A stretch of 23,015 bases of DNA, taken from contig JAAENB010000542.1 in the NCBI GenBank assembly GCA_024224995.1, positions 1-23,015 on the forward strand, in the 5' to 3' direction. The translations under genes were made by a program, and so were the position numbers. How positions within the stretch are numbered: the stretch's first letter is position 1; every line of letters begins with the position of its first letter. The notes under the pieces are model-generated. The model was not told the DNA's origin. It saw only the letters and a list, made by a program, of their open reading frames with translations, and did no database searches. This document shows, in pieces, positions 3,001-21,318 of this stretch. This DNA is from a bacterium. GTDB lineage: Bacteria > Spirochaetota > UBA4802 > UBA5550.

Positions 3001-4607
3001 GCATAATGACCCCCAATCCCAAGGGGCAGTTTAAAGCCCTGGTCGATGCCTATAAAGACGCGAATATTGATCCCGGTACGCTGAGTTATGTGGAAGCTCA
3101 CGGAACGGGTACGGTTATTGGCGATCCTGTTGAAGTCCGGGGGCTTAACCAGTTATTTAAAGAGTTTAGCGACAAAAAACAGTTTTGCGGTATTGGTTCC
3201 GTAAAGAGCAACATTGGCCATTCATTGGCAGCCGCAGGTATGGCGGGTCTTATTAAGACGCTCCTGTGCCTGAAAAATAAAAAGCTGATTCCTAACTTAC
3301 CAATTGATAAAATAAATCCCTTCCTGGAAATAGAAGATACGGCCTTTTTCCCGGTTACGGAGGTACAGGATTGGAAACCGGTACATGGAAATCCCCGAAG
3401 AGCGGGAGTGAGTTCCTATGGAATAGGCGGTACTAACGCTCATGTTGTCCTGGAAGAGTATACCGGTACTGAGAACGCCGGAGATGGAAAAAATGATATG
3501 GAACGGGGACTGCATCTCTTAACCGTTTCCGGTAAGGATGAAGAGGCGCTGCGGGCAAATATCAGCAATCTTAAGTCCTGGATAGAGAAAAAGGGCGATA
3601 TGACATTGCCCGATATTTCTTATACAAGAAATGTTTTTCGCGAACATTTTTTCCACCGGAAAGCCTTTGTGGTAAAAGATCTCACGGAGCTGCGGAAGTG
3701 TTTAGGCGGCCAGGGTGATAGCAGTATGGAAAAATCGGGATTTTACGGAAAGAAAAAGCCGCCCAAATTGGCGTTCCTCTGCTCCGGCGCCGGAGATGAG
3801 TATGTTGGCATGGGAGAAAATTTATATACTTCCCAGCCTGTTTTTAAAGACCGGACAGACAAATGCGCCAATGCCCTGAAACCGCTGCTGAAAGAAAGCA
3901 TCGACATACGGTCAATTCTCTGTCCTCAAAATGCCGATGAACGGGCAAAAGCGGAGCAGGTTATTCATGAAGAATGGCTCGCGCTGCCCCTGGTATTTGT
4001 CGTGAGTTATGCCCTGGGAGAGATGTGGAAGGCCTTTGGTATTAAGCCAAATTTTATTACGGGTCACGGTATTGGTGAATATACTGCCGCCTGTTTGGCT
4101 GAGGTTATGGCCGTTGAAGAGGCGCTAACGCTGGTGGCAGGCATTGGCAGGGGAGATCTTGATGCCGTTAATAAAACGCTTAAGGGAATGAAACTGAGCG
4201 AGCCGCTTATTCCTTTTATTTCGGGAATAAGAGGGAATATCGCGAAGGGAACGGTGGCGTCTCCGGATTACTGGATCGACCAGTTAAAGAATGAGAATGA
4301 CTTTAAAGAAGGGGCTGTGTTCCTTGAAGAGAAAGGCTGCATGGTATACCTGGAAGTTGGACCCGGGGAAAAGTTAAAAGAATTTACCATGAACAATGTT
4401 ATCGACAGGAAAGGGGAGACCTTTTTGATCTCAATTGATGAAGGCGTTAGCCAGGAATGGGAAACCGTTCTGGAATCGATTGCTGAGTTCTATGTTTCAG
4501 GGTTTTCTATCAATTGGGAAAATTTTGATTCCGGGTATAAGAGAAAAAGAGTTGACCTGCCAACATATGCCTTTAATAAAAAGTCATATTGGATTGGCCG
4601 GGAGTAA
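99..4607 (+). CDS. Fatty-acyl-AMP ligase / ACP / ketosynthase / degenerate AT polyketide synthase
   Basis: This 1502-aa protein activates a fatty acid as acyl-AMP, loads it on its own carrier domain and can condense it once. Domains in order: FAAL about 25-590, with P-loop SSGSTGSSKG at 191-200, the FAAL-typical HDMGLI and GGPNFA segments, and TTSGK with Lys561; ACP about 612-680, with the phosphopantetheine site GGNS at Ser637; ketosynthase about 701-1130, with a complete triad Cys866 (TACSSS), His1001 (EAHGTG) and His1041 (SNIGH); AT-like about 1225-1470; and a post-AT linker ending LPTYAF...YW. The AT is broken. The GHSxGE motif reads GHGIGE (Gly1324 for Ser), and the stretch that normally holds the catalytic His is missing. 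There is no ketoreductase, dehydratase or thioesterase. A free ACP follows after 3 bases. Malonyl units must come from elsewhere, for example FabD. The product is unknown. Confidence 0.93.
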   Translation: MSSHVIAPEFDRSAAPKTLAHMLRRAGEYSKNEKKIGVYYVNPDRSETFQSYGDLVENATRIYWELRNIGINKGDKLMLQIRNEYNFLNVFWACILGGIIPVPLTVAAVTMNAGEAFAKVLNVSKQVENPRILTEYGLKDVISRLNNERGDEFPNIPVFYVEDLNKLSPEETAKEIEDFPKEEDLAFLQYSSGSTGSSKGVMLTHYNLISNVYQLINRHELTTNDFYANWMPLTHDMGLICFHMPPIGSLASQFKMRPDLFVKDCSIYLEKISKFKATVCGGPNFAVSWLTERIPDEFIEKLDLSSLKIVMNGAEPISAPVAREFNKKYEKAKLNPNAMYYSYGMAEACVGITLAGPLSEPISHKLDREVFTLNSEVVDATEDSIDTIEFADCASPLNGMELKILDEQDTLLDEDQVGNLVVKGPNVTTGYYNNPEANEDLFTADGFLRTGDIGFIRNGRFTITGRKKDVIFVNGQNYYSHDLEAICWPVAGVTIGCIAVIGANNPRSGNEEIAAFVIFKKSMGEFVLLHEEIMKQVNKEIGVSLNAVIPVRQLQRTTSGKLQRFKLREDFKKGFYNEKIKEIKKAVEEYKLEQLKNIIQPTSELEFKIRKAWAEVLRMREERIGVEHKFLEIGGNSLRAIRLLALLEKIAGTELPQEVLIKCHTIQDIADYLSEMEKDDLPIKDYIMPEAEKEAAGAVTGIAVTGIGAIFPRAYSTEEFWNNLVERKVLIESVSGERKALAGVSEWEGWMALIQDVDKFDAGFFGMSAEEANVMDPQQRLMLEAAYQAFEDGGIASRLKNENNIGVYIGASVNSYLELVVDSIRKNGIDGLDPHVLPGNIMNMVAATVSHIFNLKGPAMTIDTACSSSLVALDHAVSDLQAGKIDYALAGGANLVLSPSVPLLCGIGGILSPGNRCKVFDAGADGTVLGETVAVVLLQPLATALKNNSKIYGVIKGIATNNDGSSFGIMTPNPKGQFKALVDAYKDANIDPGTLSYVEAHGTGTVIGDPVEVRGLNQLFKEFSDKKQFCGIGSVKSNIGHSLAAAGMAGLIKTLLCLKNKKLIPNLPIDKINPFLEIEDTAFFPVTEVQDWKPVHGNPRRAGVSSYGIGGTNAHVVLEEYTGTENAGDGKNDMERGLHLLTVSGKDEEALRANISNLKSWIEKKGDMTLPDISYTRNVFREHFFHRKAFVVKDLTELRKCLGGQGDSSMEKSGFYGKKKPPKLAFLCSGAGDEYVGMGENLYTSQPVFKDRTDKCANALKPLLKESIDIRSILCPQNADERAKAEQVIHEEWLALPLVFVVSYALGEMWKAFGIKPNFITGHGIGEYTAACLAEVMAVEEALTLVAGIGRGDLDAVNKTLKGMKLSEPLIPFISGIRGNIAKGTVASPDYWIDQLKNENDFKEGAVFLEEKGCMVYLEVGPGEKLKEFTMNNVIDRKGETFLISIDEGVSQEWETVLESIAEFYVSGFSINWENFDSGYKRKRVDLPTYAFNKKSYWIGRE

Positions 4608-7133: not shown

Positions 7134-9527
7134 ATGATGAACGCACTCAACGAGAAAGGGAAAACTCTTTATCCTTCCTTATTTGTACAATATAAGGTAG
7201 GTCCCATAACCCTGCCGAACCGGATATTTTTCCCGCCCATGAGCTTTAACTGGGCCAACCACGACGGCACTGTTTCGGAAAAGCTGCACGGTTTTTGCAT
7301 TGACCTGGCAGACGGCGGCTGCGGAATGATAAACGTTGGCCCGGCAGCAGTATCACCCGATTCCCGTTTGTATGAATATATGCTGCAGCTTCATAATGAA
7401 GAGCATGTCCCAACACTGAAGAAGCTTTGTGATGACATAAGTTCCCGTGGATCGGTTCCGGCCATACAGCTGATAAATTTCGGGCGCCAGTCCATAACAA
7501 CCTTTACCGGGAAAGAGCTGTACGCGCCCAGCCCCATCCCCTGTCCCGTTAATACCAAATTCGATCCTGATTATAAGATCCGGGAGATGACTCTTGAAGA
7601 TATAGACCGGGTAAAAAATGATTTCGCGAAGTCCGCGGCACTGGCAGTGGAGGCCGGAGTAAAGGTGATCCAGCTCCAGGGAGGACACGGATTTTTACTG
7701 AATGAATTTTTATCGCCCTATACGAATCACCGGACCGATGAGTACGGCGGAGAGCTGGAGAATAGAATCCGGTTTGTAGTGGAGGTTATTGAGGCAGTAA
7801 AGAACGTTGTTGGTCATGAGGCGGCAATTGATATACGGCTTAGCGCCGATGAACTGATTGACAAGGGCTTAAAACCGGCCGACTATAAAGAAATACTTCC
7901 CCTCCTGGAAAAGGCCGGGATAGATATGATAACCGTTTCAACGGGAATATCGTATGCCTTTTTGCGGCATCCCCTTGAACCCCAGGCGCGGTACAGTCAT
8001 CTGGCAGAAGAACTGCAGGGCTATTGCAATGTACCGGTTGCCCATGCCGGTTTTATCGCTTCAATAAAAAAGGCCGAGCGGTTGCTGGGCAATGAAAAGA
8101 TGGGCATTGTGGGACTGGGCCGTGCCCAGCTGGCCGATCCCTACATGGTGCGGAAAGCGGCAGAAGGAAGAGATGAGGATATTAACAAATGCCTCTGGGA
8201 TAACCAGTGTCTCTGGAGATTCGCGAACCGGGGAGAGATGAAAACCTTTTGCCTGGTAAACCAGAAATACAAGCGGCCAAACAAAGTGGTGAATGATTAT
8301 AATTTCGTGGACCAGAAATATGTCCATAAAGACCAGCAGGAAAATGTTCACATCTATAATGTACAAAGAATTTTACCAATATCCTTTCCGTCGCAGGTTT
8401 TTGAAATGGATGTACTCCCGGTCCTGGATGAGGCTGAACGAAAGCTCATAACAGACAATTATATCTTAGTGAAACCGGAAGAATACCTGGATGAGTCCAA
8501 AGAGGCAAAACCCTTTTACGTGCTGCGGACATTGCGCGAAAGCTTTGCCGCAAAAGAATACGAAGAAGTAGCGGAAGAGGAATTGCGGCCAGAGGACAGG
8601 GATTTTCTAAGTAATCTTTACAAGAAAGATACGGGACTGGATAAATATATACGAACGAAGAACCTGGCCGACCCGGACCGGTTCGGGTTTCATTTACCCG
8701 ATTCCGAGCGGGCGAATATTTCGCTTATCCTGGAAAAAAATAAAAAAATATCCAAATCGAATGTTTTTTTCGCTTCACTTCATGTAGACCCTGAGCATGA
8801 GTATTTTTTTGAGCACAGCAATGACCACGCACCCGGCATGATGCTTATTGAAACAGCCAGGCAGTTCCTTACGGCATGTACTCATATATACGGGGGAGTC
8901 CCGCTCACGGGGATAAACTTTATCCTGAGCGCCCTTGACGTAATGTTTACCGATTATGTGCTCATGAGCCATCCCTGCCGCATAAAAGGAAACGTGGATG
9001 TGCGTTTTACCAATGATGACGGCGCCTGGACCGACCTTGAAGCGCGCGTTGGCTTTTACCAGGCAGGGAACATAAAAGCCTGGTCGCGTATTGAAGCGAA
9101 TATGATGCGGAATATGGTGCTGGAAAAAATATACAGCCAGAAACATTTAAAGTACACAACACGGTTTGAACCCATTCCTGAGTTTAATATCGAGGTGAAC
9201 CTGCGGGATGTTGACGACAACAGCAATAACTATTTTGGCAATATAATGGATATATCTCCCAAGGGATTTATGCTGGAATTCAATGACTCCATAGGACTTC
9301 GAAAGGGGAATGAATTTGAGTTTAATATTAACCTGGAAAAGTCTCTGTACGCTCATGGCAGATGTTCCGTGCAGTGGTACCGGGAAAAAGGCGGTCGTCA
9401 TGTGGCCGGGTTAAAAATTACCAATATTGACCCGGTAAACAGTGAAAATGTTTATGAAGTAATTAAACGCCTGTGCCATTTCCGTGACCAGCGAGAAACA
9501 GCATCGGGGATTTATGGGGTGATTTAG
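7134..9527 (+). CDS. Old-yellow-enzyme / AfsA-like hotdog / PilZ fusion protein
   Basis: This 797-aa three-part protein has no close match that I recognise. Residues about 10-375 are a flavin-dependent ene-reductase barrel of the NADH:flavin oxidoreductase family, with PNRIFFPPMS near the start and GGHGFLLNEFLSP followed by YGG..ENR at about 183-205. The usual first His of the substrate-binding pair is Gln182; His185 is present. A C-x2-D-x2-C-x13-C set (Cys353, Asp356, Cys359, Cys373) sits where 2,4-dienoyl-CoA reductases bind a 4Fe-4S cluster, but the following FAD/NAD domain is absent. Residues about 385-670 resemble the A-factor synthase AfsA: a YVHKDQQENV start and a DHAPGMMLIETARQF hotdog helix with His565. 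Residues about 675-790 are a PilZ domain with DISPKG (706-711) but no clear RxxxR motif. The AfsA call rests on motifs alone; another acyl-thioester hotdog enzyme is the main alternative. Confidence 0.82.
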   Translation: MMNALNEKGKTLYPSLFVQYKVGPITLPNRIFFPPMSFNWANHDGTVSEKLHGFCIDLADGGCGMINVGPAAVSPDSRLYEYMLQLHNEEHVPTLKKLCDDISSRGSVPAIQLINFGRQSITTFTGKELYAPSPIPCPVNTKFDPDYKIREMTLEDIDRVKNDFAKSAALAVEAGVKVIQLQGGHGFLLNEFLSPYTNHRTDEYGGELENRIRFVVEVIEAVKNVVGHEAAIDIRLSADELIDKGLKPADYKEILPLLEKAGIDMITVSTGISYAFLRHPLEPQARYSHLAEELQGYCNVPVAHAGFIASIKKAERLLGNEKMGIVGLGRAQLADPYMVRKAAEGRDEDINKCLWDNQCLWRFANRGEMKTFCLVNQKYKRPNKVVNDYNFVDQKYVHKDQQENVHIYNVQRILPISFPSQVFEMDVLPVLDEAERKLITDNYILVKPEEYLDESKEAKPFYVLRTLRESFAAKEYEEVAEEELRPEDRDFLSNLYKKDTGLDKYIRTKNLADPDRFGFHLPDSERANISLILEKNKKISKSNVFFASLHVDPEHEYFFEHSNDHAPGMMLIETARQFLTACTHIYGGVPLTGINFILSALDVMFTDYVLMSHPCRIKGNVDVRFTNDDGAWTDLEARVGFYQAGNIKAWSRIEANMMRNMVLEKIYSQKHLKYTTRFEPIPEFNIEVNLRDVDDNSNNYFGNIMDISPKGFMLEFNDSIGLRKGNEFEFNINLEKSLYAHGRCSVQWYREKGGRHVAGLKITNIDPVNSENVYEVIKRLCHFRDQRETASGIYGVI

Positions 9528-9914: not shown

Positions 9915-11759
9915 ATGAACACAAACGATAACACAAGCAGCTATCTCCCCACAACCGTAAAAGAAGCAGCCGCGCGCGGCTGGGACGAACTGGATGTAAT
10001 TTTATTCACGGGCGATGCCTATGTGGATCACCCCTCATTCGGCGCTGCCGTAATGGGGCGGGTTCTGGAAGAGCAGGGCTTACGCGCGGCAATAGTGCCC
10101 CAGCCAAACTGGCAGGACGATTTGCGCGACTTTAAGAAGTTCCGTAGCCCGCGGCTTTTTTTTGGAGTAACATCGGGGGCAATGGACTCCATGGTAAATC
10201 ACTATACAGCGAAAAAACGCCTCCGGTCCACAGACGCGTACACCCCCGGCGGAAAAGCAGGTTTCCGGCCCCATAATGCAACAGTAGTATACACAAAGAT
10301 ATTAAAGCAGCTTTTTCCCGAAGTTCCGGTAATAATCGGAGGCATAGAAGCCTCTCTTCGACGGGTTACCCATTACGATTACTGGGCCCATATCCTTAAA
10401 CCCTCTATCCTGGCGGAGAGCGGGGCCGATCTCCTGGTATACGGCATGGGAGAGCAGCCCGTAAAGGAGATAGTCCGCTTATTTAATAAAAATGTACCGT
10501 TTTCTTCTATTAAGCGAACAATTCCGCAAACAGCCTGGCTCCTGCCTCAGGGAGAAGAGCTGCGGAAAAATAAGAAGTGGGAAACCCTGGAACTGGCTTC
10601 CCATGAAGATTGTACGCGCGATAAAAAAGTCTTTGCGAAGAATTTTACCCAACTGGAACGGGAGTGGAGCACGGGCAGAGCACAGCGCCTGGTGCAGAAA
10701 ACCGGGCCTGCAACAGTGATTATCAACCCCCCATATCCCCCAATGAGTACAAAAGAGATAGATTCGGTCTATGAACTGCCCTTTACACGGCAGCCTCATC
10801 CCCGTTACCGGAAAAAAGAGCCCATTCCGGCATATGAAATGATACAATCATCCGTAACAATACACCGGGGATGTTTTGGCGGGTGCGCGTTCTGCGCGCT
10901 TTCGGCACACCAGGGAAAGAGAATCGCGTCCCGGTCAAAAGCATCCGTTTTAAAAGAAGTGGAGCAGCTGCGGAAAATACCCGGATTTAAAGGAATAATC
11001 AGCGACCTTGGAGGGCCGTCTGCCAATATGTACGGGATGAAAGGGGTTGATATAACAAAATGCGAAACCTGCGCACGGGTTTCCTGTATATATCCGTCAA
11101 TTTGCGCGAATCTTAATATCTCACATAAAGAGCTGGTTGAGTTATACAGGCAGGTAAGAGCCTTGCCCGGAATAAAAAAGGTGTTTATCGGAAGCGGCAT
11201 CCGCTATGATTTATTGGTGGAAGAAGAAAAAAAGGGGAAGGGTAAGCCTGATAGCTGCAGACAGGAGCACGGAAATAATTACAGGGATGAATATATCCGG
11301 GAGCTGGCAGAGTTTCATGTATCAGGAAGGCTGAAAGTGGCACCGGAGCATACATCAAAAAGGGTGCTTGATTTAATGAGAAAACCCTCTTTTGAGCTTT
11401 TTTACCGCTTTAAAAAGAAATTTGAAGAAATTAATAAAGAAAAGGGGCTTGATCAGCACCTGGTACCCTATTTTATGTCGGCCCATCCCGGCTGCGACCT
11501 TGAAGATATGGCAAACCTTGCCCTGGAAACAAAAAAGCTGGGCTACCGGCTTGAACAGGTCCAGGGATTTACCCCCACACCCATGACCCTCTCCGCGGTG
11601 ATCTATTATACCGGAATAGATCCATACACCGGCAAAAAAGTCTACTCTGCCAAAACCGACAAAGAAAAACGTCATCAGGAACGCTTCTTTTTCTGGTATA
11701 AACCGGAGAACTCTTCGTGGTTTAAGAAGACTCTTAAAAGTTTGAAGTTTGAAGTTTGA
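9915..11759 (+). CDS. ygiQ: YgiQ-family radical SAM protein
   Basis: This 614-aa radical S-adenosylmethionine enzyme belongs to the YgiQ (UPF0313) family, whose substrate is not established. The 4Fe-4S motif CxxxCxxC is Cys320, Cys324, Cys327, preceded by the N-terminal YgiQ signature (LPTT...RGWDELDVI..TGDAYVDHPSFG, split here). Later conserved parts include FIGSGIRYD, LKVAPEHTS, YFMSAHPGC and QGFTPTPMTLS. The C-terminus is a little short against typical members, which carry extra Lys/Arg-rich tails. No convincing ribosome site precedes the ATG, and a possible plus-strand promoter would place the transcript start almost at the ATG. The last codons and the TGA stop lie inside a 7-base tandem repeat. 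It is flanked by a divergent MshEN gene and a strong hairpin downstream, so it is probably a single-gene unit. Confidence 0.92.
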   Translation: MNTNDNTSSYLPTTVKEAAARGWDELDVILFTGDAYVDHPSFGAAVMGRVLEEQGLRAAIVPQPNWQDDLRDFKKFRSPRLFFGVTSGAMDSMVNHYTAKKRLRSTDAYTPGGKAGFRPHNATVVYTKILKQLFPEVPVIIGGIEASLRRVTHYDYWAHILKPSILAESGADLLVYGMGEQPVKEIVRLFNKNVPFSSIKRTIPQTAWLLPQGEELRKNKKWETLELASHEDCTRDKKVFAKNFTQLEREWSTGRAQRLVQKTGPATVIINPPYPPMSTKEIDSVYELPFTRQPHPRYRKKEPIPAYEMIQSSVTIHRGCFGGCAFCALSAHQGKRIASRSKASVLKEVEQLRKIPGFKGIISDLGGPSANMYGMKGVDITKCETCARVSCIYPSICANLNISHKELVELYRQVRALPGIKKVFIGSGIRYDLLVEEEKKGKGKPDSCRQEHGNNYRDEYIRELAEFHVSGRLKVAPEHTSKRVLDLMRKPSFELFYRFKKKFEEINKEKGLDQHLVPYFMSAHPGCDLEDMANLALETKKLGYRLEQVQGFTPTPMTLSAVIYYTGIDPYTGKKVYSAKTDKEKRHQERFFFWYKPENSSWFKKTLKSLKFEV

Positions 11760-11781
11760 AGTTTGAGGTTCGAGGTTTGAG
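11740..11781 (+). repeat. Six-copy 7-base tandem repeat (GTTTGAR) over the ygiQ stop
   Basis: Six units of GTTTGAA/GTTTGAG (one with GTTCGAG) run from 11740 to 11781 and end in GTTTTTT. The ygiQ stop codon is in the third unit. Seven is not a multiple of three, so unit changes shift frame, but TGA recurs in the array and limits the effect to a few C-terminal residues. Confidence 0.85.
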
Positions 11782-11820
11782 GTTTTTTACCGGAGGGGCT
11801 TGTTCCTTACACCTGTCTCC

Positions 11821-12010: not shown

Positions 12011-12724
12011 ATGTTTATTAATATAAAATCTATGCTAAAAGTTGAGAATATATCCAGATCTTATAAAAAAAAGAAGGTATTGGACTCCGTAAGTTTTGAG
12101 GTTCCGGCAGACAGTATTACCGGTATTATTGGCCCAAAAGGGTCCGGAAAGTCGACCTTATTAAAAATAATTGCCGGTTTTGAGAGTCAAAAAAGCGGCA
12201 ATATTTATTATGAAGAAAAGCGAGTTTCCTCATCCAGGGAAAAAAGAAAGCTGTTTTCATATATGCCCGAAGAGCTGAAAGCCTGGCCCGATTATTATGT
12301 GGGGGAATTTGTTGATTTTGTCACCGGCATAACCGGCCGCTTTTACCGGGAAGTGTATGATATACTTCGAATTACGCGGGTAAAAGATGAGAAAATAGGG
12401 AATTTGTCCCAGGAATACCATAAGCGGTTGAGCCTGTACTTTGCCCTGTCCAATCCTCGTAAAATAATACTTCTTGATGAGCCTTTTGACGGATTTGATC
12501 CGGTACAGCTCAAGGAAATAATTGAACTCATAAAATATGAGAATGAAAACCAGAGAACCTTTCTCATATCGGTTCACCAGTTGTATGACGCGGAAAGGTT
12601 ATGTGATTTTTTTATATTCCTGGTAGACGGAAAAATAGTTGAACAGGGCGATATATTCAAGCTGAGTGAAAAATACGGCATAAATTATAATCTGGAAGAA
12701 ATTTTTACCCGGGCCTTACGATGA
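12011..12724 (+). CDS. GldA-like ABC transporter ATP-binding protein
   Basis: This 237-aa cytoplasmic ATPase would power the permease encoded next. Walker A is GPKGSGKST (41-49), Walker B IILLDEP (152-158), D-loop FDGFD, and the switch His lies in ISVHQ. The Q-loop position reads MPE, as in GldA/CcmA-type exporters. The signature motif is LSQEY (132-136) instead of LSGGQ; GldA-type proteins often have LSKGY, so this is a further drift. The stop overlaps the next start by 4 bases (ATGA), which indicates translational coupling. The start is uncertain. The ATG at 12011 has only a weak GGCGG upstream, while the ATG at 12032 fits the family's usual N-terminus (MLKVENISRSY) but has no ribosome site. 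TTGACG at 11994-11999 may be part of a promoter. Confidence 0.9.
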   Translation: MFINIKSMLKVENISRSYKKKKVLDSVSFEVPADSITGIIGPKGSGKSTLLKIIAGFESQKSGNIYYEEKRVSSSREKRKLFSYMPEELKAWPDYYVGEFVDFVTGITGRFYREVYDILRITRVKDEKIGNLSQEYHKRLSLYFALSNPRKIILLDEPFDGFDPVQLKEIIELIKYENENQRTFLISVHQLYDAERLCDFFIFLVDGKIVEQGDIFKLSEKYGINYNLEEIFTRALR

Positions 12725-15700
12725 AACTATTTACAACCCTGTTATATAAAGAAATAAAAGAGCTTTTTGGTTCGGGAAAAACCTGGCTCCTGTTATTAAT
12801 CGCGTGCCTCATTTTCGGGTATAGTTTTATATCCAGTGTAGCCTTTTTTAGCAGGGAGAGCGCGGCAGCAATACAAGACCCGCTTTTTCTTTCCGGTTTT
12901 GACCCCTCCCTGGGGGTTTTCCGGCCCGCCTTTGCCGCGTACCTGGTAATTTTCTCCATAATTACCCCATATATATTTATTAATTTTTTATCTTCCGAAA
13001 AGCGGAATAAGACATTAACTCTTCTTATGCAATTGGCACCGGGAGTACCGGGAATTTTACTGGCAAAATTTTTTACGGGATTAATTTTTATTGCCATAGT
13101 CCTGTTCCTTTCTGTTCCGGCAGTCCTGTTCTGGTCTTTCCTGGGCGGGCACCTCCATGGAGCTGAAATATCTCTTTTTTACCTGGGATTTTTCCTCTAC
13201 GGAATGATGACCCTGTCCGTATCAATGTTCGCCTCGACCCTGGTCGATACAAAGATCGGCGCCTGGCTTATCGCGCTGCTGCTGATCCTGCTTTCACCAG
13301 CTGTTGATTTTTTAATGGGAAATATCCTGTTTCCCGGATCTGTTTTTTCCCGTTTTTACACGGCAACCGGTATGGCTGCCGGTTTTGAAACCGGGATCCT
13401 CTCCCTGGAAGCGGTTCTCTATTTTATATTAATATCATTATTTTTCTTTTTCGTAACAATGACAATCGTAACTATCGGCAAGCTGGAAAAAGGACTCTCC
13501 GCGGGCACGGCAGTTGTGCTGCTCCTTCTTTTGGCGCTTTCCATAGGAAGAACGGGCACCATAAATCTTGACGTAAGCGAAAGCGGAAGAAATTCTTTTG
13601 CCCCGGAAATTGAAACTCTTATTAAGGAAACCGGGCCTCTTTCCATTGATATATACCTGGAAAAGAACGATCCCCGCTTTGAAGCCTATGACCGGTCTTT
13701 TTTAACAAAGCTTTTTCTTCTCCGGAATGATGTACAGGTAACCCTTATAAAGGATAGTCTACAAACTGCGGATTACGGAAAATTCGTCTACCGGGCAGGA
13801 GGGGAGACCAGGGAGTCCTGGTCCACTCACCAGGAGGAGATCTACCGGGTACTCGCTGAGTTGTATAAAATACCGTTAACTGAACCTCTGTCATTCCGGG
13901 AACAGGACGCATACAAAGGATATCCCCTGGCAAAAGGGGCGGGAATCCAGGATATTATATTTTTTACCTATTTTATACTGCTGCCCCTGATCTTTGTGGC
14001 ATTGTACCTGTTAATATACCTGTATCGCAAGCAATATTACGGAAGCCAGTGGGGCATTGAAGATCCCGACGAAGAGCCCCTCTCCCTTGCTGTCCGGGGG
14101 TATACTGCAAAAACACCCGAACCGGCTCCGGCACCGGTAGAAATCCCGGAGATTGAAGCAGCTCCGCAAGTAGAGCGGAAAGATGACACAAAAAATGACA
14201 CAAAAGAGGAGCTGGATTTTGGATTGGGTGATGCGCTGGCACCGGAGACCGCGGAAGAGCCCGATTTTAATATCCCGGAAGAAGAGATATCCTTTGAAAA
14301 AGAGCTGGCTCTTGAGCCCGTAACAGGAGATTCCGGGGTACGTGAAGACGAGTCCGGTGTTGCAACAGTAAAGCCCATAACCGGGGCAATAAAACCTTCG
14401 GGAGAGGAAGACATGACTGCTCTTCTTGAAGGGGAAGAGAGCCTGGGAATGACAGAAGAAGACCGGCTTGCGGCAACTGCTGAGATGGTTCCGCCGCCCG
14501 TTACGGTTGAACCCGAGGGCGTTAGAAAAAAGATCGCTGTTTTTCTTATTTCCTGGATACTCATTATTACCTCCTGCTCTTTAATTCAGCATTTTTTCCT
14601 GGAAGATAACGGAATAAAGCTTTTTCCTTCCCCCGGTGAACTGCTGCCTCAATCTATCGCGGACCTGGGATCGGGATTATTTAAAAAAAGCCTCATAAAA
14701 AAAGAAAAAAGAAGTACTGCGAGTACTGCGAGCACCGCGGGTACTGCGAGCACTGCGGGTACTGCCGTTGATCCCGGGAATAATTATTTATATGCCGGTA
14801 AAAATAACGAGTATTTGCAGTCGTTTTTTAACCGCCTGTCGCGGCTGGAATCGGGGACGCGGGATACCGTCTCCATAATGCATTTTGGTGATTCTCTCAT
14901 CTGGGGGGATTGTTTTACCGTAAACATGAAGCAGCGTTTTCAAAAGGATTTTGGAGACGGCGGCAGGGGCCTGGTTCCGGTAGTGCAGATACCTCCTACA
15001 ACCCTGCAGGATCATATCAATAAAACAAAGAAATATTATTTCAGGCATACTTTTTTACTGCACGAATTCTGGCGTGCTGCCCCGGGCAGAAAGAAGAAAA
15101 AGAAACCAGGCGATGCAGCCGCGGGCGGTGCCGGGGAAAAAGCAGAGGTAAAGCAGGAAAAACCGGAACCGGAACCCGAGCTTGCACGGATTCCGGACCA
15201 GGGAAAGCCCAAGCAGAAAAAAGGGAAAAAACGGCGGATGATCCTGCGGCTTAAGCCGCCGATTAATGCGAAACTTGGTTTTACCGGGGAAGGAGCCCGT
15301 CCGAAAAATGAAAAGGCAGAGATCCGGTATGAACTGCCCCGGGGATTCAAGCCCTGGAACAAGATCCAGGTCTTTGTCCGGGCGCCAGGAGGCAAGCTGG
15401 TAATGGTAAACCGGGTAGTAAAGGGAAAGACGGTTAAAAGGCCGCTCCTGGTAAAAAAGAATGTAACGTTTAAATATATAGTAAATGCCCGGTATAATGA
15501 TGATGAAAAGCGGCTCAGTAAATCCATAACCCTGAAGCCGGCGGAAAGCAGTGTTGTTGAATTTGAAGTGGACAATGCCAGGAATGTTGTTATAGATTTT
15601 AAAGGGAACGGGAGAAATTTACCCTATATTGATACGATCAATCTTGAGACCGGCCGGGGGCTGGTCTATCATGCCGTAATTCGAATGGGCACTCATATGT

Positions 15701-17667
15701 CCTGGATGACCGCGGTACCGGAAAAGAGTATGACCAGAGGGCTGAAGACCATGAATCCCGACCTGGTGCTCTTTCAATACGGAGTAAATGAAGCGGCATC
15801 TATAGAGGCCGTTAGCGGTTTCACTGCCGCCTTATACCGGAAGCAGATGAGGAACTGGCTGCAAAAAGTCAGGGATGTATTGCCGGAAACGAATATGGTC
15901 CTTGTTGGACCCCTGGAACGGCTTGTAAAGAAGAAGGGGAAACTGAAGGATTTTAAAGCCACCTTGCTGGTACGGGATATTCAGCGGGAGGAAGCAGCAC
16001 GGGCCGGGATCGCCTTTTTCGATACCTATGATTTCCTCGGCGGAAAAGGGCATATGAAGACCTTCGCCACTGAGGGGTTTGCCATGGCCGACTATACTCA
16101 TTTAACAATGGACGGCGGAGCCCTGGTAGCTGATGCTTTATACGAGGTAATAATAAACGCCTATAAAGGCAAGAACGAACGGATTGTTCTGGGTGATATT
16201 TCCGGTGTCAAAGAAAAGACATCTCAAATTGCCTTTCAGAAGGAGAACAATAAAGCCATACAGTTTAATTCAAATGCTTACGCGTATTTTTTGATATTAA
16301 TTGTTATCGCGAGTCTTATTTTGCTGCGGGTGCCCCAGCTGCGGTTTATTTTCCTGGTACTGGCATCATATTATTTTTACGCCACCTGGAAATTATGGCC
16401 CCTCATACTGTTGTTCGCGTCCAGTTTTGGAGATTATATTTTTGCCCAGGAGATTAAAACAGCACGGGACGACGGACGCAGGGGAACCATTTTTCTTATT
16501 TTTTCCCTGGTGTGCAACCTGGGACTACTTTTTGTTTTTAAGTACTTTGACTTTTTCTCGGGCCTGCTGAGCGAAGTAATTAATTCCTCCGGAGCATCGG
16601 TGAATCTTCCGGTATTGAATACCGTGCTGCCCGTAGGAATATCCTTTTATACCTTTCAGACTCTATCATATACCATTGATGTATGGCGAGGGAAGATTGA
16701 ACCGGAACCGAATTTTATTAAATTCGCTCTTTTTGTATCTTTTTTCCCGCAATTGGTGGCAGGGCCAATTGTGCGGGCAAAAGAATTTTTGCCTTCATTA
16801 AAGAACAAGGCGCAGCATTTTATTGTAACGTATAAACATTTTACCACGGCGTTTTTTCTCATTTTTACGGGGCTCATAAAAAAAATGGGGGCGGACTGGC
16901 TCGCGGTTAATATTATAGACCGGGTCTATAAAAGTCCCCAGATGTTTACACCCCTTGAAACGCTTACGGCAGTGTATGCCTATGGATTGCAAATATACGG
17001 AGATTTTTCCGGGTATACCGACATTGCCATAGGCAGTGCCATGCTTCTTGGATATAATTTAACCATCAACTTTAAGCGGCCCTATACTTCGGTCTCCGTG
17101 AGCGATTTCTGGCGGAAGTGGCATATTTCCCTGGGAAGCTGGCTGCGTGATTACCTGTATATCAGCATGGGAGGGAATAAGAAACGGGTTTATTTAAACC
17201 TCCTGGTTACAATGGTGTTATGCGGTCTCTGGCACGGCGCGGGGGTAAATTTTGTTCTCTGGGGATTGTTTCACGCTTCTTTTGTTATGTTTGAGCGCCT
17301 GGTTCGAATCCATAAACGGAAGCCGGTCAATTTTGTTGAGCGGTCTATACGGGTCTTTATTACTCTTCATGTTGTGCTCTTTGGCTGGATTATTTTCAGG
17401 TCTGGATCATGGGCGGTCTTTACCGGGATAATGAAATCCTTGTTTCAGCTAACCCCGGGAGCTCCTAATGTTGACTTTGTACTGGTATTGGTAATTGTTA
17501 TTTTATATCTTTTTCATTTTAGCCCCTTACGCTGGCGGGACTGGGCATCGCTTAAATGGGCTCAAATGCCGGCAGTACTGCAAGGGGGGATTGCTGTTAT
17601 TATTACGGTCTTTTTATATAATATCGCGATTGCGGATATTAAGCCCTTTATTTATTTTCAATTTTAG
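12721..17667 (+). CDS. Giant fusion: GldF/GldG-type ABC permease + SGNH esterase + MBOAT acyltransferase
   Basis: This is one open frame of 1648 residues. Residues 1-250 form a six-helix ABC-2 permease (GldF-like). About 265-405 form a short GldG-like periplasmic domain after a membrane helix (NLDVSESGRNSF, LSIDIYLEKNDPRF), closed by a helix at 412-435. Residues 436-600 are an acidic, Pro/Glu-rich linker, predicted cytoplasmic. A helix at 605-623 is followed by a (S/G)TA repeat at 665-682. About 700-1170 is an SGNH hydrolase with GDS at Ser725, GVNE with Asn1023 and DYTH with Asp1124/His1127, and with a Lys/Pro-rich insert near 790-840. Residues 1181-1648 are an MBOAT O-acyltransferase (DltB/AlgI type) with WHIS His1468 and LWHGAG His1505. 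The topology agrees: the SGNH part is periplasmic, beside MBOAT, as in AlgI/AlgJ or PatA/PatB pairs. It probably exports or senses, then O-acylates, an envelope glycan; substrate unknown. Confidence 0.9.
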   Translation: MKLFTTLLYKEIKELFGSGKTWLLLLIACLIFGYSFISSVAFFSRESAAAIQDPLFLSGFDPSLGVFRPAFAAYLVIFSIITPYIFINFLSSEKRNKTLTLLMQLAPGVPGILLAKFFTGLIFIAIVLFLSVPAVLFWSFLGGHLHGAEISLFYLGFFLYGMMTLSVSMFASTLVDTKIGAWLIALLLILLSPAVDFLMGNILFPGSVFSRFYTATGMAAGFETGILSLEAVLYFILISLFFFFVTMTIVTIGKLEKGLSAGTAVVLLLLLALSIGRTGTINLDVSESGRNSFAPEIETLIKETGPLSIDIYLEKNDPRFEAYDRSFLTKLFLLRNDVQVTLIKDSLQTADYGKFVYRAGGETRESWSTHQEEIYRVLAELYKIPLTEPLSFREQDAYKGYPLAKGAGIQDIIFFTYFILLPLIFVALYLLIYLYRKQYYGSQWGIEDPDEEPLSLAVRGYTAKTPEPAPAPVEIPEIEAAPQVERKDDTKNDTKEELDFGLGDALAPETAEEPDFNIPEEEISFEKELALEPVTGDSGVREDESGVATVKPITGAIKPSGEEDMTALLEGEESLGMTEEDRLAATAEMVPPPVTVEPEGVRKKIAVFLISWILIITSCSLIQHFFLEDNGIKLFPSPGELLPQSIADLGSGLFKKSLIKKEKRSTASTASTAGTASTAGTAVDPGNNYLYAGKNNEYLQSFFNRLSRLESGTRDTVSIMHFGDSLIWGDCFTVNMKQRFQKDFGDGGRGLVPVVQIPPTTLQDHINKTKKYYFRHTFLLHEFWRAAPGRKKKKKPGDAAAGGAGEKAEVKQEKPEPEPELARIPDQGKPKQKKGKKRRMILRLKPPINAKLGFTGEGARPKNEKAEIRYELPRGFKPWNKIQVFVRAPGGKLVMVNRVVKGKTVKRPLLVKKNVTFKYIVNARYNDDEKRLSKSITLKPAESSVVEFEVDNARNVVIDFKGNGRNLPYIDTINLETGRGLVYHAVIRMGTHMSWMTAVPEKSMTRGLKTMNPDLVLFQYGVNEAASIEAVSGFTAALYRKQMRNWLQKVRDVLPETNMVLVGPLERLVKKKGKLKDFKATLLVRDIQREEAARAGIAFFDTYDFLGGKGHMKTFATEGFAMADYTHLTMDGGALVADALYEVIINAYKGKNERIVLGDISGVKEKTSQIAFQKENNKAIQFNSNAYAYFLILIVIASLILLRVPQLRFIFLVLASYYFYATWKLWPLILLFASSFGDYIFAQEIKTARDDGRRGTIFLIFSLVCNLGLLFVFKYFDFFSGLLSEVINSSGASVNLPVLNTVLPVGISFYTFQTLSYTIDVWRGKIEPEPNFIKFALFVSFFPQLVAGPIVRAKEFLPSLKNKAQHFIVTYKHFTTAFFLIFTGLIKKMGADWLAVNIIDRVYKSPQMFTPLETLTAVYAYGLQIYGDFSGYTDIAIGSAMLLGYNLTINFKRPYTSVSVSDFWRKWHISLGSWLRDYLYISMGGNKKRVYLNLLVTMVLCGLWHGAGVNFVLWGLFHASFVMFERLVRIHKRKPVNFVERSIRVFITLHVVLFGWIIFRSGSWAVFTGIMKSLFQLTPGAPNVDFVLVLVIVILYLFHFSPLRWRDWASLKWAQMPAVLQGGIAVIITVFLYNIAIADIKPFIYFQF
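14713..14766 (+). repeat. In-frame 9-base minisatellite encoding (S/G)TA repeats
   Basis: Six 9-base units of the type RGYACTGCG run in frame and encode Ser/Gly-Thr-Ala six times (residues 665-682). They form a flexible linker between the membrane helix and the SGNH domain. A near-identical unit (GRGTACTTC) is found at 20186-20221. Confidence 0.9.
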
Positions 17668-17705: not shown

Positions 17706-18419
17706 GTGTTAAAAAAAACGTGCTATAGTGCTATTGTCCTGCTATTGGTTAGCCCGGTTTTTTCACAAATTGTTGATTTTGAATACAGGGGATACCAGCT
17801 TCAGCCGGGCCTTTTTATTCCGCAAATTGGAGACTGGCATACCGGGAAAGAGGCCGGGGTAAACCAGCAAAATACCGTGTATGTTATAGACGGCAGGAAC
17901 GTAACGGATCGAGAGATTGCTCCGGAGAATAGTTTAACGGTGGAGCTGCCCGGCCTGTATGAAAAACGGTATAAAGAATTCCGTTCGCGCCTGTACGAAT
18001 CCGGGTATTATCCCCTGGCAGTCTACCGGGGAAACGCTGATTTTAAATTTGGTTCCATTTCGGTACAGTTTAAAGCTCGCGGCGGCAGGATCAGCCGGGC
18101 CGCAGGGATTGCCTTTGACATAAAGGAAAATGGTGAGTATTGTGTAGTCCGGGTTGATCCCCTGGAGCGGAATATAGTATTGCTTAAAATGGAAAATAAA
18201 CGGCTTCGCCCCCTGAAATGGGCTCGCAATATACAAACCGGGTCCGACACCTGGCATACACTGCGGCTGGAAACAAATGGCAGGGTATTATTTGTTTCTC
18301 TTGATTTTAATCAATACCTGGAGTATCGTTTTGATGAGCCCATAAGCGGGAAAATAGGGCTCTGGTCTAAAAGTGACAGCTATATATTGTTTGATAATTT
18401 TGTATTGTTATCGTATTGA
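17706..18419 (+). CDS. Secreted jelly-roll (LamG/DUF1080-like) protein
   Basis: This 237-aa exported protein has a signal peptide (hydrophobic SAIVLLLVSPVFS, cleavage probably after Ser20). The mature part is nearly all beta strands, in the order seen in concanavalin-like jelly rolls of the DUF1080 (3-keto-disaccharide hydrolase) and LamG groups: GSISVQFKARGG, AGIAFDIKENGEYCVVRVD, a WHTLRLETNGR strand, LFVSLDFNQYLEY and GKIGLWSKSDSYILFDNF. No catalytic site can be named; carbohydrate binding is the natural guess. It starts with GTG, preceded by AGAGGG 5 bases upstream. It lies 38 bases after the fusion gene and 15 bases before the SGNH gene, so it belongs to the same operon and may hold the glycan that is O-acylated. 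Confidence 0.8.
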   Translation: MLKKTCYSAIVLLLVSPVFSQIVDFEYRGYQLQPGLFIPQIGDWHTGKEAGVNQQNTVYVIDGRNVTDREIAPENSLTVELPGLYEKRYKEFRSRLYESGYYPLAVYRGNADFKFGSISVQFKARGGRISRAAGIAFDIKENGEYCVVRVDPLERNIVLLKMENKRLRPLKWARNIQTGSDTWHTLRLETNGRVLFVSLDFNQYLEYRFDEPISGKIGLWSKSDSYILFDNFVLLSY

Positions 18420-18434: not shown

Positions 18435-19190
18435 ATGAAAAGAACAATAAGAAGACTTGGAATTTTGTTGGTTTTAATCATATTAGCAATAATATTTCTT
18501 CTTTTTGAAGGAGAGATGGTCTTTAATTACGGATATAAACTCATATATCATTCGGCAGTTTTGCCTGAGCGGGTATATGACGAATATTGGGAAGACCGGT
18601 TTAACCTGATCAATGAGCGGGTGCGCAACGGAAATGTTGAGCTGGTTTTCCTGGGAGATTCTATTACTCATGGCTGGGAAGGAGCCGGTAAAAGAGTCTG
18701 GAAAAAATACTATGGTCACCGTAATGCCGTGAATATGGGAATTCTTTCGGATAAGACCGAGAATGTTCTCTGGAGGATAAATAACGGCCACTTTCGGGGA
18801 ATCTATCCCCGGGTGGTTGTTCTGCTCATTGGAACTAACAACCAGCGGTCGAATACAGCTGAAGAGATATCTGAGGGAATTAAAAAAATTGTAGATAATG
18901 TTCTACAAAAGAAACCAAAAGCCAAGGTCCTTATCCTGGGAGTTTTCCCCTGCTGGAAGTACCCCTCTTCTGTAAGGAGACGGCTTAAAGACGTGAACCG
19001 GCTTGTTTCCAGGTACGACAACGGGAATAATATCAGGTTCCTTGATGTGGGCTATCGTTTTACCGATGATAATGGAGTTATTTCACAGGACATTATGGAA
19101 GATTATTTGCACCTGACACCGAAAGGATACCGGATGTGGGCAGAGACTATGGAACCGACTCTTAAGATGATGCTTGGGGAGAAGTGGTAG
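18435..19190 (+). CDS. Membrane-anchored SGNH/GDSL hydrolase
   Basis: This 251-aa esterase or acyl-transfer enzyme is held by one N-terminal membrane helix (about residues 8-24) with the catalytic domain outside the cytoplasm. All four SGNH blocks are visible: FLGDSITHG with nucleophile Ser76, Gly in NMGIL, GTNN at 133-136 with Asn135, and DYLHLT with Asp223 and His226. The fold resembles the PAF-acetylhydrolase gamma-like group. It is the last gene of the operon and the second SGNH domain in it, the other being fused to MBOAT. One may put acyl groups on a glycan and the other remove them. Deacetylation of a sugar ester is likely from the family; the substrate is unknown. GGGGGT lies just upstream of the ATG. 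Confidence 0.88.
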   Translation: MKRTIRRLGILLVLIILAIIFLLFEGEMVFNYGYKLIYHSAVLPERVYDEYWEDRFNLINERVRNGNVELVFLGDSITHGWEGAGKRVWKKYYGHRNAVNMGILSDKTENVLWRINNGHFRGIYPRVVVLLIGTNNQRSNTAEEISEGIKKIVDNVLQKKPKAKVLILGVFPCWKYPSSVRRRLKDVNRLVSRYDNGNNIRFLDVGYRFTDDNGVISQDIMEDYLHLTPKGYRMWAETMEPTLKMMLGEKW

Positions 19191-20150: not shown

Positions 20151-20186
20151 AAAAAAAGGGTGACTGCAACAGTGCCACCCTTTTTT
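20151..20186 (-). terminator. Terminator of the 20224-21318 lipoprotein gene
   Basis: An 11-bp stem AAAAAAGGGTG/CACCCTTTTTT (20152-20162 and 20176-20186) encloses an inner ACTG-CAA-CAGT hairpin. On the minus strand it ends in seven T. It lies just after the 9-base repeat that follows the lipoprotein stop codon. Confidence 0.85.
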
Positions 20187-20221
20187 ACTTCGAGTACTTC
20201 GGGTACTTCGAGTACTTCGGG
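20186..20221. repeat. 9-base minisatellite (TACTTCGRG)x4
   Basis: Four units alternate TACTTCGAG and TACTTCGGG between the lipoprotein stop codon and its terminator. The unit is nearly the same as the in-frame repeat at 14713-14766. On the minus strand the array stays open in the lipoprotein's frame and would encode a (YPKYSK)x2 tail if the TAG stop were passed, ending in TAA. Confidence 0.85.
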
Positions 20222-20223
20222 TA

Positions 20224-21318
20224 CTATCCTTTTTTGTCCGCAGCCGGTGCAGCTGCGGTTTTTTTCTTAGCCGGTTTTTCTTTCGGTTTCTCTTTGGGAT
20301 ATTTTACTCTATACTTTTTATCCGGCAGGCCGATGTACTTTAAAAATGCTCTCCGGTTGCTCAGGATAAATCGTTTTACCGGTTTGAGCCTGATTTTTCC
20401 AATATCCTTGCAATAGTTACCCGGGCCTTCGGGCTTTTGGTCGAATCCGGGCTTGTTTCCCGATCGTAATACTTTTGATACTCCTATAAAACCGTTCTCA
20501 TCAACTACAATAATCTTGAACTTCTTTTTCCGGTGTACATTGATCTTAAAAGTGTCCGTATCCTGTACCCAGCGGGAAAAGTAGCCGCGATAGCTTACTC
20601 CTATTGTTGTTATGTGATAGGATTTACTCTTTCTGCCCTTAACACCTGTTATTTTCCCTTTTACGCAGGTTACCTTCGGGTTGGGATAATCGAAATTCCA
20701 GCGTTTGAGTCCGTCTATTTCATAGAGCCGTACACGGACCCATACATACCGGGCCCGTACCCGTGTTGGCATGGTATCTAATTCTTCCTGGTTGTGCCCG
20801 TGATGCTGCCACTGGCCCTTATCATTAACAAAATAGACTTTATACTTGTCACCCGGTGCCACATTGGGAAACTGTACGCTTATTTTTTTGCCTTCCGCAA
20901 GGTCTATTCTTTCTCCTTTATGGACTGCTTCCACACTGAACATTCCCGCTGATTCAAAATTTTCTTCTTCGCCCTTTTCATTGTAGTAGGTTAAACTCAC
21001 TCCTGAGCTGGCAAAATCGAAGCGGTCAATTATTTCGGTTATGCTCAGGGTAATTTTTTCTCCGGGAGTATACTCATCGGGATCAATATTAAAAGAGTTC
21101 GCCGGAATTATGAGGCGGGTTCCCTTTTTTGCCGTTACCGTATTCTCCTTTCCCGGAAGAATTTCGAATTTTTGCTTTTTAGGCCCCAGGTATTTAAAAA
21201 CCTGGTTTATTTTTACGGAGTCTACCCGGGGACGATCCGGCTCATCACTTGAGCAGGAGACCGTTGCTATTGTCATTACCGTTGCTAGTAAACATGCAGC
21301 ATATTTTGTATATTTCAT
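20224..21318 (-). CDS. Lipoprotein of unrecognised family with Lys/Pro/Ala tail
   Basis: This 364-aa lipoprotein is predicted from the lipobox TVSC (Cys22). I do not recognise the family. The first half has strands such as KNTVTAKKGTRLIIPANSFN, then PGEKITLSITEI and SAGMFSVEA, a pattern I associate with beta-sandwich regions in Bacteroidota surface proteins. A middle part has WQHHGHNQEELDT and paired beta strands; a later strand pair KFKIIVVDENGFIG resembles a carboxypeptidase-regulatory-like fold. The C-terminus is very basic (KPKEKPAKKK, then an Ala-rich AAAPAADKKG end), so it may touch an acidic glycan or the membrane. The start at 21318 is chosen because GGAG lies 7 bases upstream and it opens the signal peptide; a longer frame begins at 21351 but would mask the signal. 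Its promoter lies at 21350-21378. Confidence 0.82.
   Translation of the reverse strand: MKYTKYAACLLATVMTIATVSCSSDEPDRPRVDSVKINQVFKYLGPKKQKFEILPGKENTVTAKKGTRLIIPANSFNIDPDEYTPGEKITLSITEIIDRFDFASSGVSLTYYNEKGEEENFESAGMFSVEAVHKGERIDLAEGKKISVQFPNVAPGDKYKVYFVNDKGQWQHHGHNQEELDTMPTRVRARYVWVRVRLYEIDGLKRWNFDYPNPKVTCVKGKITGVKGRKSKSYHITTIGVSYRGYFSRWVQDTDTFKINVHRKKKFKIIVVDENGFIGVSKVLRSGNKPGFDQKPEGPGNYCKDIGKIRLKPVKRFILSNRRAFLKYIGLPDKKYRVKYPKEKPKEKPAKKKTAAAPAADKKG

Follow-up and report, generated by a model that had tools for sequence, protein, structure and literature searches.

Described here is a single open reading frame in which an ATP-binding cassette (ABC) permease is joined, through an acidic linker, to an SGNH domain and a membrane-bound O-acyltransferase (MBOAT) domain. 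It lies within a stretch of 23,015 nucleotides (contig JAAENB010000542.1 of assembly GCA_024224995.1, from a bacterium of the Spirochaetota), which as a whole is termed here the window. Directly upstream, and overlapping the fused gene, is a gene for an ABC ATPase. The elements concerned are the following (residue numbers are those of the fused protein; TM, transmembrane helix):

12011-12724 (+): ABC ATPase gene, GldA-like, 237 aa; its stop overlaps the ATG of the fused gene by 4 bp (ATGA)
12721-17667 (+): fused gene, ABC permease - acidic linker - SGNH - MBOAT; open from ATG to stop, 1648 aa
12721-13485 (+), residues 1-255: six-helix ABC-2 permease
12997-13035 (+), residues 93-105: cytoplasmic loop with E-K-x4-L-x-L-L; helix at 98-102 in the structure model
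13486-14040 (+), residues 256-440: TM7, alpha/beta GldG-N-like outer domain (motif DVSESGRNSF) and TM8, from the structure model
14041-14520 (+), residues 441-600: acidic linker, predicted cytoplasmic; 43 D/E and 11 K/R among 160 residues; coding score positive
14527-14595 (+), residues 603-625: helix TM9, hydropathy peak at 605-623
14713-14765 (+): 9-bp tandem repeat, in frame, in a Ser/Thr/Ala/Gly-rich stretch after TM9 (Tandem Repeats Finder)
14773-16170 (+), residues 685-1150: Ape1-like SGNH domain with an inserted beta domain; S725, N1023, D1124, H1127
15076-15255 (+), residues 786-845: Lys/Pro/Glu-rich insertion within the SGNH region, at which local BLASTP alignments to many homologues break
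16258-17664 (+), residues 1180-1648: MBOAT domain with H1468 and H1505; PF03062; Foldseek match to DltB (8jem), E 9.4e-14
17647-17664 (+), residues 1643-1648: acyl-shuttle hexapeptide FXYXXF, F1643-I-Y1645-F-Q-F1648 (Tyr1645), the last six residues

A single coding frame

That the permease, SGNH and MBOAT regions belong to one 1648-residue frame, as the initial annotation of this DNA had proposed, is confirmed both by the open frame and by a coding signal that stays in that frame throughout. Using a codon-usage score trained on eight other genes of the window, each of the 27 blocks of 60 codons covering residues 1-1620, linker included, scores positive in the gene's own frame, and all 27 score negative in the other two forward frames; a misjoining of two genes is rejected on this signal. 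The domain architecture, the catalytic residues and the topology (linker inside, SGNH outside, MBOAT in the membrane) that the annotation had assigned likewise hold. Nor are homologues always split at the linker: permease and SGNH-MBOAT lie in one frame in 26 of the 27 long proteins among the listed homologues described below, and in 4 of 392 Spirochaetota genomes. TM9 marks the place where unfused relatives begin, inasmuch as the alignments of five such proteins (P0029-P0033) start at window residues 603-626 and within the first 26 residues of those proteins.

The SGNH-MBOAT half

The structure model of the C-terminal half has a pLDDT of 82.6, falling under 50 at model positions 189-237, within the Lys/Pro/Glu-rich insertion. 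The SGNH domain matches Lipase_GDSL (PF00657) at residues 1009-1140 (25.2 bits, cut-off 23.6), and its closest solved structures are Ape1 O-acetylesterases: it is matched to 4k3u (Ape1) in two blocks by phmmer and, with an E-value of 1.1e-16 and a TMt of 0.84, by Foldseek. The MBOAT domain matches PF03062 at residues 1329-1544 (93.7 bits, cut-off 27) and scores 160.4 bits, below the cut-off of 375, against NCBIfam TIGR04091, the DltB equivalog.

Conservation was assessed over 121 proteins, that is, the window protein and 120 listed homologues of 228 found; 27 of the homologues are longer than 1100 residues and the other 93 are of 908-1043 residues. The SGNH residues G723-D724-S725, N1023, D1124 and H1127 are kept in all 121, so that the catalytic Ser725, Asp1124 and His1127 named in the annotation are present as claimed, as are His1468 and His1505 of the MBOAT domain (119 of 121 for each). 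The motif F-x-Y-x-x-F forms the very C-terminus of 117 of the 121. Compared with a PatAB-type system, the chain thus has an MBOAT with catalytic His, the hexapeptide, and the SGNH Ser/Asn/Asp/His set, but its SGNH is not a separate protein and its block II Gly is not replaced by Ser or Asn. In its treatment of PatAB, PMC12148441 describes MBOAT and SGNH as separate proteins and reports that the Tyr of the hexapeptide is acetylated; it proposes this Tyr as the carrier by which the group reaches the partner SGNH. For the window protein the acyl chemistry is well supported by family membership, and a corresponding relay would follow from the family and its conserved residues.

The permease part and its ATPase

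Judged from its sequence, the region of residues 1-440 is a full ABC permease of GldF/NosY type, whose outer domain is short and GldG-N-like. Library models recognize it poorly (25.6 bits against PF12679, the Pfam ABC-2 membrane model, cut-off 27.2; 23.7 bits against NCBIfam GldF, far under the cut-off of 288.5); its identity is clear from its six-helix NosY fold and from comparison with permeases that are encoded separately. A profile built from nine separate permeases, with the window excluded, scores 298.5 bits against the window (positions 2-438); the same profile gives 81-101 bits with seven GldF proteins and 18-132 bits with 30 of 31 other fused rows. These 31 rows are the 27 long listed homologues and four copies taken from genomes (two of the four duplicate listed proteins), and none of them matches profile positions 297-370. 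Two motifs draw the same line. The loop before TM3, E-K-x4-L-x-L-(L/M), is found in the window, in all eight separate permeases and all seven GldF proteins that cover it, and in none of the 29 other fused rows that do so. The RNSF motif of the outer domain is found in the window and in all nine separate permeases, and in none of the 29 other fused rows covering that domain. By analogy with ABC-2 transporters in general, loop 93-105 is likely to be the element that couples the permease to its ATPase.

The 'GldG-like domain' of the initial annotation stands as a GldG-like start, but not as a whole GldG: only about the first 100 residues of such a domain are present, followed by TM8, and a Pfam scan of residues 253-467 returned no family. 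Thioredoxin entries obtained for the outer domain with Foldseek are weak (E about 0.3). No Type VII (MacB/YbbAP) permease fold was recognized among the 50 fold entries listed, which does not exclude one. Among other long proteins, only P0131, a GldF-GldG fusion, was found to carry this N-terminus, in a search whose word prefilter also misses known worn fused relatives, so that the negative is a weak one.

The ATPase matches PF00005 (80.4 bits) and NCBIfam GldA (137.2 bits, below the cut-off of 402.6), and has a Walker A (GPKGSGKS), a Walker B (IILLDE) and an H-loop (ISVH); by sequence the ABC engine of the window is intact, with the unusual signature LSQEY. The annotation's suggestion of an ATP-driven transporter tied to an O-acylation machine is therefore sustained in outline for the window, given these motifs and the 4-bp overlap of the ATPase gene with the fused gene, but it does not extend to the fused relatives, in which the coupling-loop motif is missing and in whose four readable neighborhoods (20 kb each; loci L111-L114) no ATPase is found: no open reading frame there matches the window's ATPase, and no P-loop motif occurs in non-overlapping frames of at least 100 residues.

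That the fused relatives might borrow a free ATPase is unsupported. In six genomes (four with fused and two with unfused proteins) the nearest ATPases, at 30-31% identity, are located elsewhere and adjoin their own GldF-like genes, or membrane genes of 730-740 residues that we take to be GldG, or both; in this survey the picking of reading frames merged or missed one gene in each of L175, L178, L179 and L180. The window thus holds the most complete fused transporter found, the others looking like permeases kept as scaffolds. From four gene neighborhoods and 29 sequence rows, the other fused lineages appear to have lost the ATPase, and after erosion of both coupling loop and outer domain what is left of their permease would be a membrane scaffold; for those without a readable neighborhood, ATPase loss is presumed.

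Relatives and their distribution

An SGNH-MBOAT pair in one chain is characteristic of a widespread family, comprising the window protein and its fused and unfused relatives; named hosts of the unfused ones are Spirochaetota, Leptospiraceae, Turneriella and Bacteroidales, and 36 aligned unfused proteins are 30-51% identical. A permease part is the rarer feature: with the permease profile, 26 of the 27 long listed homologues are matched (the exception being P0039) and none of the 93 shorter ones; direct BLASTP to the window's permease recovers 23 of the 27. In the 392 sampled Spirochaetota genomes the four fused frames were found independently by whole-protein and by permease alignment; other frames of more than 1050 residues at SGNH-MBOAT loci (L092-L095 and L103; 1064-1118 residues) give no permease match. 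A peptide scan of genome contigs returned at least 80 loci, the matched residues listed lying all in the SGNH-MBOAT half and none in the permease half. In the class of genome G103, 7 of 46 genomes match at E 1e-150, four with fused and three with unfused proteins; in eight genomes of one Spirochaetota class, whose YgiQ is 55-59% identical to that of the window (65 genomes searched), nothing matches the fused protein at that E-value. Among open-licence articles in PMC, judged by titles and the beginnings of abstracts, no paper on an ABC permease fused to MBOAT or SGNH was found.

At L111-L114 the fused genes adjoin a gene that is presumably transaldolase-like, in a conserved neighborhood unlike that of the window, and at L111-L113 a presumably CapA-like gene lies on the opposite side. 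Separately, at L162-L168, in seven of eight genomes of one Spirochaetota class, an ATPase gene, a GldF-like gene and two further conserved genes, which we take to be GldG and DUF4340, occur in order.

Operon and neighboring genes

Two further genes follow the fused gene:

17706-18419 (+): LEC, a lectin-like protein of 237 aa with a beta-sandwich; signal peptide judged by eye; PF21708 at 19.3 bits, cut-off 27
18435-19190 (+): GDSL2, SGNH/GDSL hydrolase, 251 aa; PF13472 at 86.2 bits; N-terminal membrane helix by eye

Because of the ATGA overlap and of gaps of only 38 bases (fused gene to LEC) and 15 bases (LEC to GDSL2), ATPase, fused gene, LEC and GDSL2 look like one four-gene envelope operon. 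This operon joins two pairs that are seen apart elsewhere. In one genome (G029, L161) the closest separate permease among the genomes surveyed, truncated at its start by the contig end, is followed by a LEC homologue, the two frames overlapping by 19 bases, without SGNH-MBOAT; in two others (L115 and L116) a GDSL2 homologue lies directly upstream of an unfused SGNH-MBOAT gene (E 3e-72 and 5e-71). Since LEC is rare, with homologues in 2 of 392 Spirochaetota genomes, and since G029 pairs it with the permease, the neighborhood is unlikely to be due to chance. The other two LEC copies (L173 and L174) are not beside a relative of the window's permease, and no ABC gene is among the frames listed beside the copy at L174.

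Comparison with known systems

The closest known systems are the following. (i) PatA/PatB, AlgI/AlgJ-AlgX and DltB/DltD share with the window an MBOAT with catalytic His and FXYXXF (on DltX in Dlt) and an outside SGNH with Ser/Asp/His, but the window has these in one chain, with an Ape1-like SGNH that has the block II Gly, and with an ABC permease in front. (ii) The unfused SGNH-MBOAT proteins share the SGNH-MBOAT half and differ in having no permease match. (iii) GldA-GldF-GldG and NosFY are of the same ATPase-permease type, with the same permease fold and a GldG-N-like motif, whereas the window has no more than the initial part of a GldG, lacks additional membrane partners in its operon, carries a fused acyltransferase and lies far below the NCBIfam cut-offs of the gliding system. 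(iv) Ape1, the peptidoglycan O-acetylesterase, has the SGNH fold with an inserted beta (CBM35-type) domain, but is a soluble esterase lacking MBOAT or transporter, whereas the SGNH of the window is membrane-tethered and MBOAT-fused. (v) In YbbAP-TesA of E. coli an ABC engine likewise works with an extracytoplasmic esterase-type enzyme, TesA being of SGNH type, but that system is described as a Type VII ABC of separate proteins, with a hydrolase only and no MBOAT. According to the proposal in PMC12646458, YbbAP takes hydrophobic molecules out of the membrane and presents them to TesA; this is the nearest precedent for an ABC engine that feeds an enzyme of this sort.

Proposed mechanism and alternatives

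The best reading, which we consider about as probable as not, is that of an ATP-coupled envelope O-acyltransferase which presents its acceptor to SGNH-MBOAT, loosely as YbbAP does to TesA. It starts from what is observed directly in sequences and models (a chain without interruption, a permease that is complete, conservation of the catalytic residues and of the shuttle motif, and the gene order), to which it would add the acyl relay, ATP coupling, dimerization and an acceptor. Two permeases and two ATPases would form a GldF/NosY-like ABC engine; MBOAT His1505 would move an acyl group from cytoplasmic acyl-CoA to the chain's own C-terminal Tyr1645, which would hand it to SGNH Ser725 and thereby to an extracytoplasmic glycan; and ATP-driven motion of the permease and outer domain would extract the acceptor, present it or deliver it to the tethered SGNH. 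Given the likeness of this SGNH to Ape1, peptidoglycan is the best guess for that acceptor. It is further proposed, more tentatively, that this is the first single-chain ATP-coupled envelope O-acyltransferase, with ABC strokes driving or gating acyl delivery outside, and that its relatives form a series of decay from permease to scaffold.

The principal alternative, which we judge unlikely though worth serious consideration, is an exporter of the ordinary kind to which an enzyme is tethered: on its own, the ABC half would carry the acceptor (perhaps a lipid-linked glycan, a glycolipid or a peptide) across the membrane, and the fusion would merely keep the acyltransferase at the exit, with no mechanical coupling. 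Alternatively, the permease could be a retired membrane anchor in the window as well, and the ATPase gene a remnant, as the state of the other fused relatives (no coupling motif in 29 of 29 rows, no ATPase in four of four neighborhoods) and the departure of the ATPase signature from LSGGQ would suggest; this is rendered rather improbable by the coupling loop, RNSF motif and full permease length that the window keeps, by its Walker A, Walker B and H-loop, and by the 4-bp gene overlap. Equally improbable is that the SGNH half is an Ape1-like esterase removing acyl groups, so that the chain, possibly with GDSL2, edits acylation and does not only add groups: Ape1 enzymes are indeed its closest solved structures and the block II Gly is kept, but it is joined to an MBOAT that has the shuttle motif in nearly all of the proteins compared, which is how a transferase is laid out. 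To a sequencing or assembly error joining two genes hardly any probability can be given, for, although a long acidic linker and a full outer domain occur together in one chain in no homologue found, the single-frame coding signal runs through the linker in all blocks, and a single frame with this order of parts is found in 26 further protein clusters and in four genomes, the proteins being in part identical.

Several observations weigh against the ATP-coupled transferase. The block II Gly (G990, placed by phmmer alignment to 4k3u, a position that is moderately sure) is kept in 117 of 121 proteins where PatB has Ser or Asn, so that the SGNH could be an esterase. The ABC signature of the ATPase is LSQEY, not LSGGQ. 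Because the 93 shorter listed homologues have no permease match, acylation as such needs no permease. In no relative found do a full permease, an ATPase next to it and SGNH-MBOAT occur together, gene neighborhoods being readable for only four fused relatives, and hence the working state rests on one window. In G014 (L173) the LEC homologue precedes a different, importer-looking ABC system (the genes after it being presumably binding-protein-like, a 536-residue membrane gene and an importer-type ATPase); this is a second ABC pairing of LEC, and LEC therefore need not belong to a permease of the window type. A Pfam scan of 12 genes of the window, two of them without any match, gave no domain for glycan synthesis. 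Finally, in a careful tree of 31 rows a single origin of the fusion appears in only 40% of 200 bootstrap trees.

Other tree results bear on the same point. A quick tree of 76 rows, covering part of the relatives, gives a single origin 95% SH-aLRT support; in the 31-row set, a clade of the 14 fused rows, the window not included, has an approximately unbiased test value (p-AU) of 0.54; and for the permease part, the 27 fused rows and the window as one clade have a p-AU of 0.78, seven rows having been dropped (duplicates of P0006 and of L113, two truncated rows, a fragment and two near-copies). Warnings as to long branches and composition apply to these trees. A single joining of permease and SGNH-MBOAT is, from these sequences, neither shown nor rejected, and is not firm.

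According to PMC12148441, MBOAT/SGNH acylation of the envelope is held to need no energy beyond that of the acyl thioester. The covalent joining of permease and acyltransferase, accompanied by an ATPase that matches, suggests that there is a class in which ATP is also used to position the acceptor or to extract it. Those fused relatives that lack the coupling loop and, where readable, a nearby ATPase would be a natural series for assessing what the ABC part contributes, and they probably exemplify the reduction of a transporter to a scaffold. More generally, the many proteins with MBOAT and SGNH in one chain offer a ready-made tethered system for structural work.

Other features of the window

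The following observations concern other parts of the window:

99-4607 (+): 1502-aa frame of a starter-type polyketide synthase, made up of fatty-acyl-AMP ligase, carrier and ketosynthase, and matching an acyltransferase in part
7134-9527 (+): 797-aa frame combining an old-yellow-enzyme-type flavin oxidoreductase, an AfsA hotdog and PilZ, an unusual trio
11738-11785: AAGTTTG repeated in tandem (7 bp, 6.9 copies), extending across the 3' end of the YgiQ gene
20186-20225: tandem repeat at the 3' end of the 20224-21351 gene

The repeat at 14713-14765 in the fused gene is separate from that at 20186-20225 (9-bp/18-bp units). The trio in the 797-residue frame might link cyclic di-GMP to small-molecule synthesis, and variation in the copy number of the YgiQ repeat could possibly alter the C-terminus of that protein.

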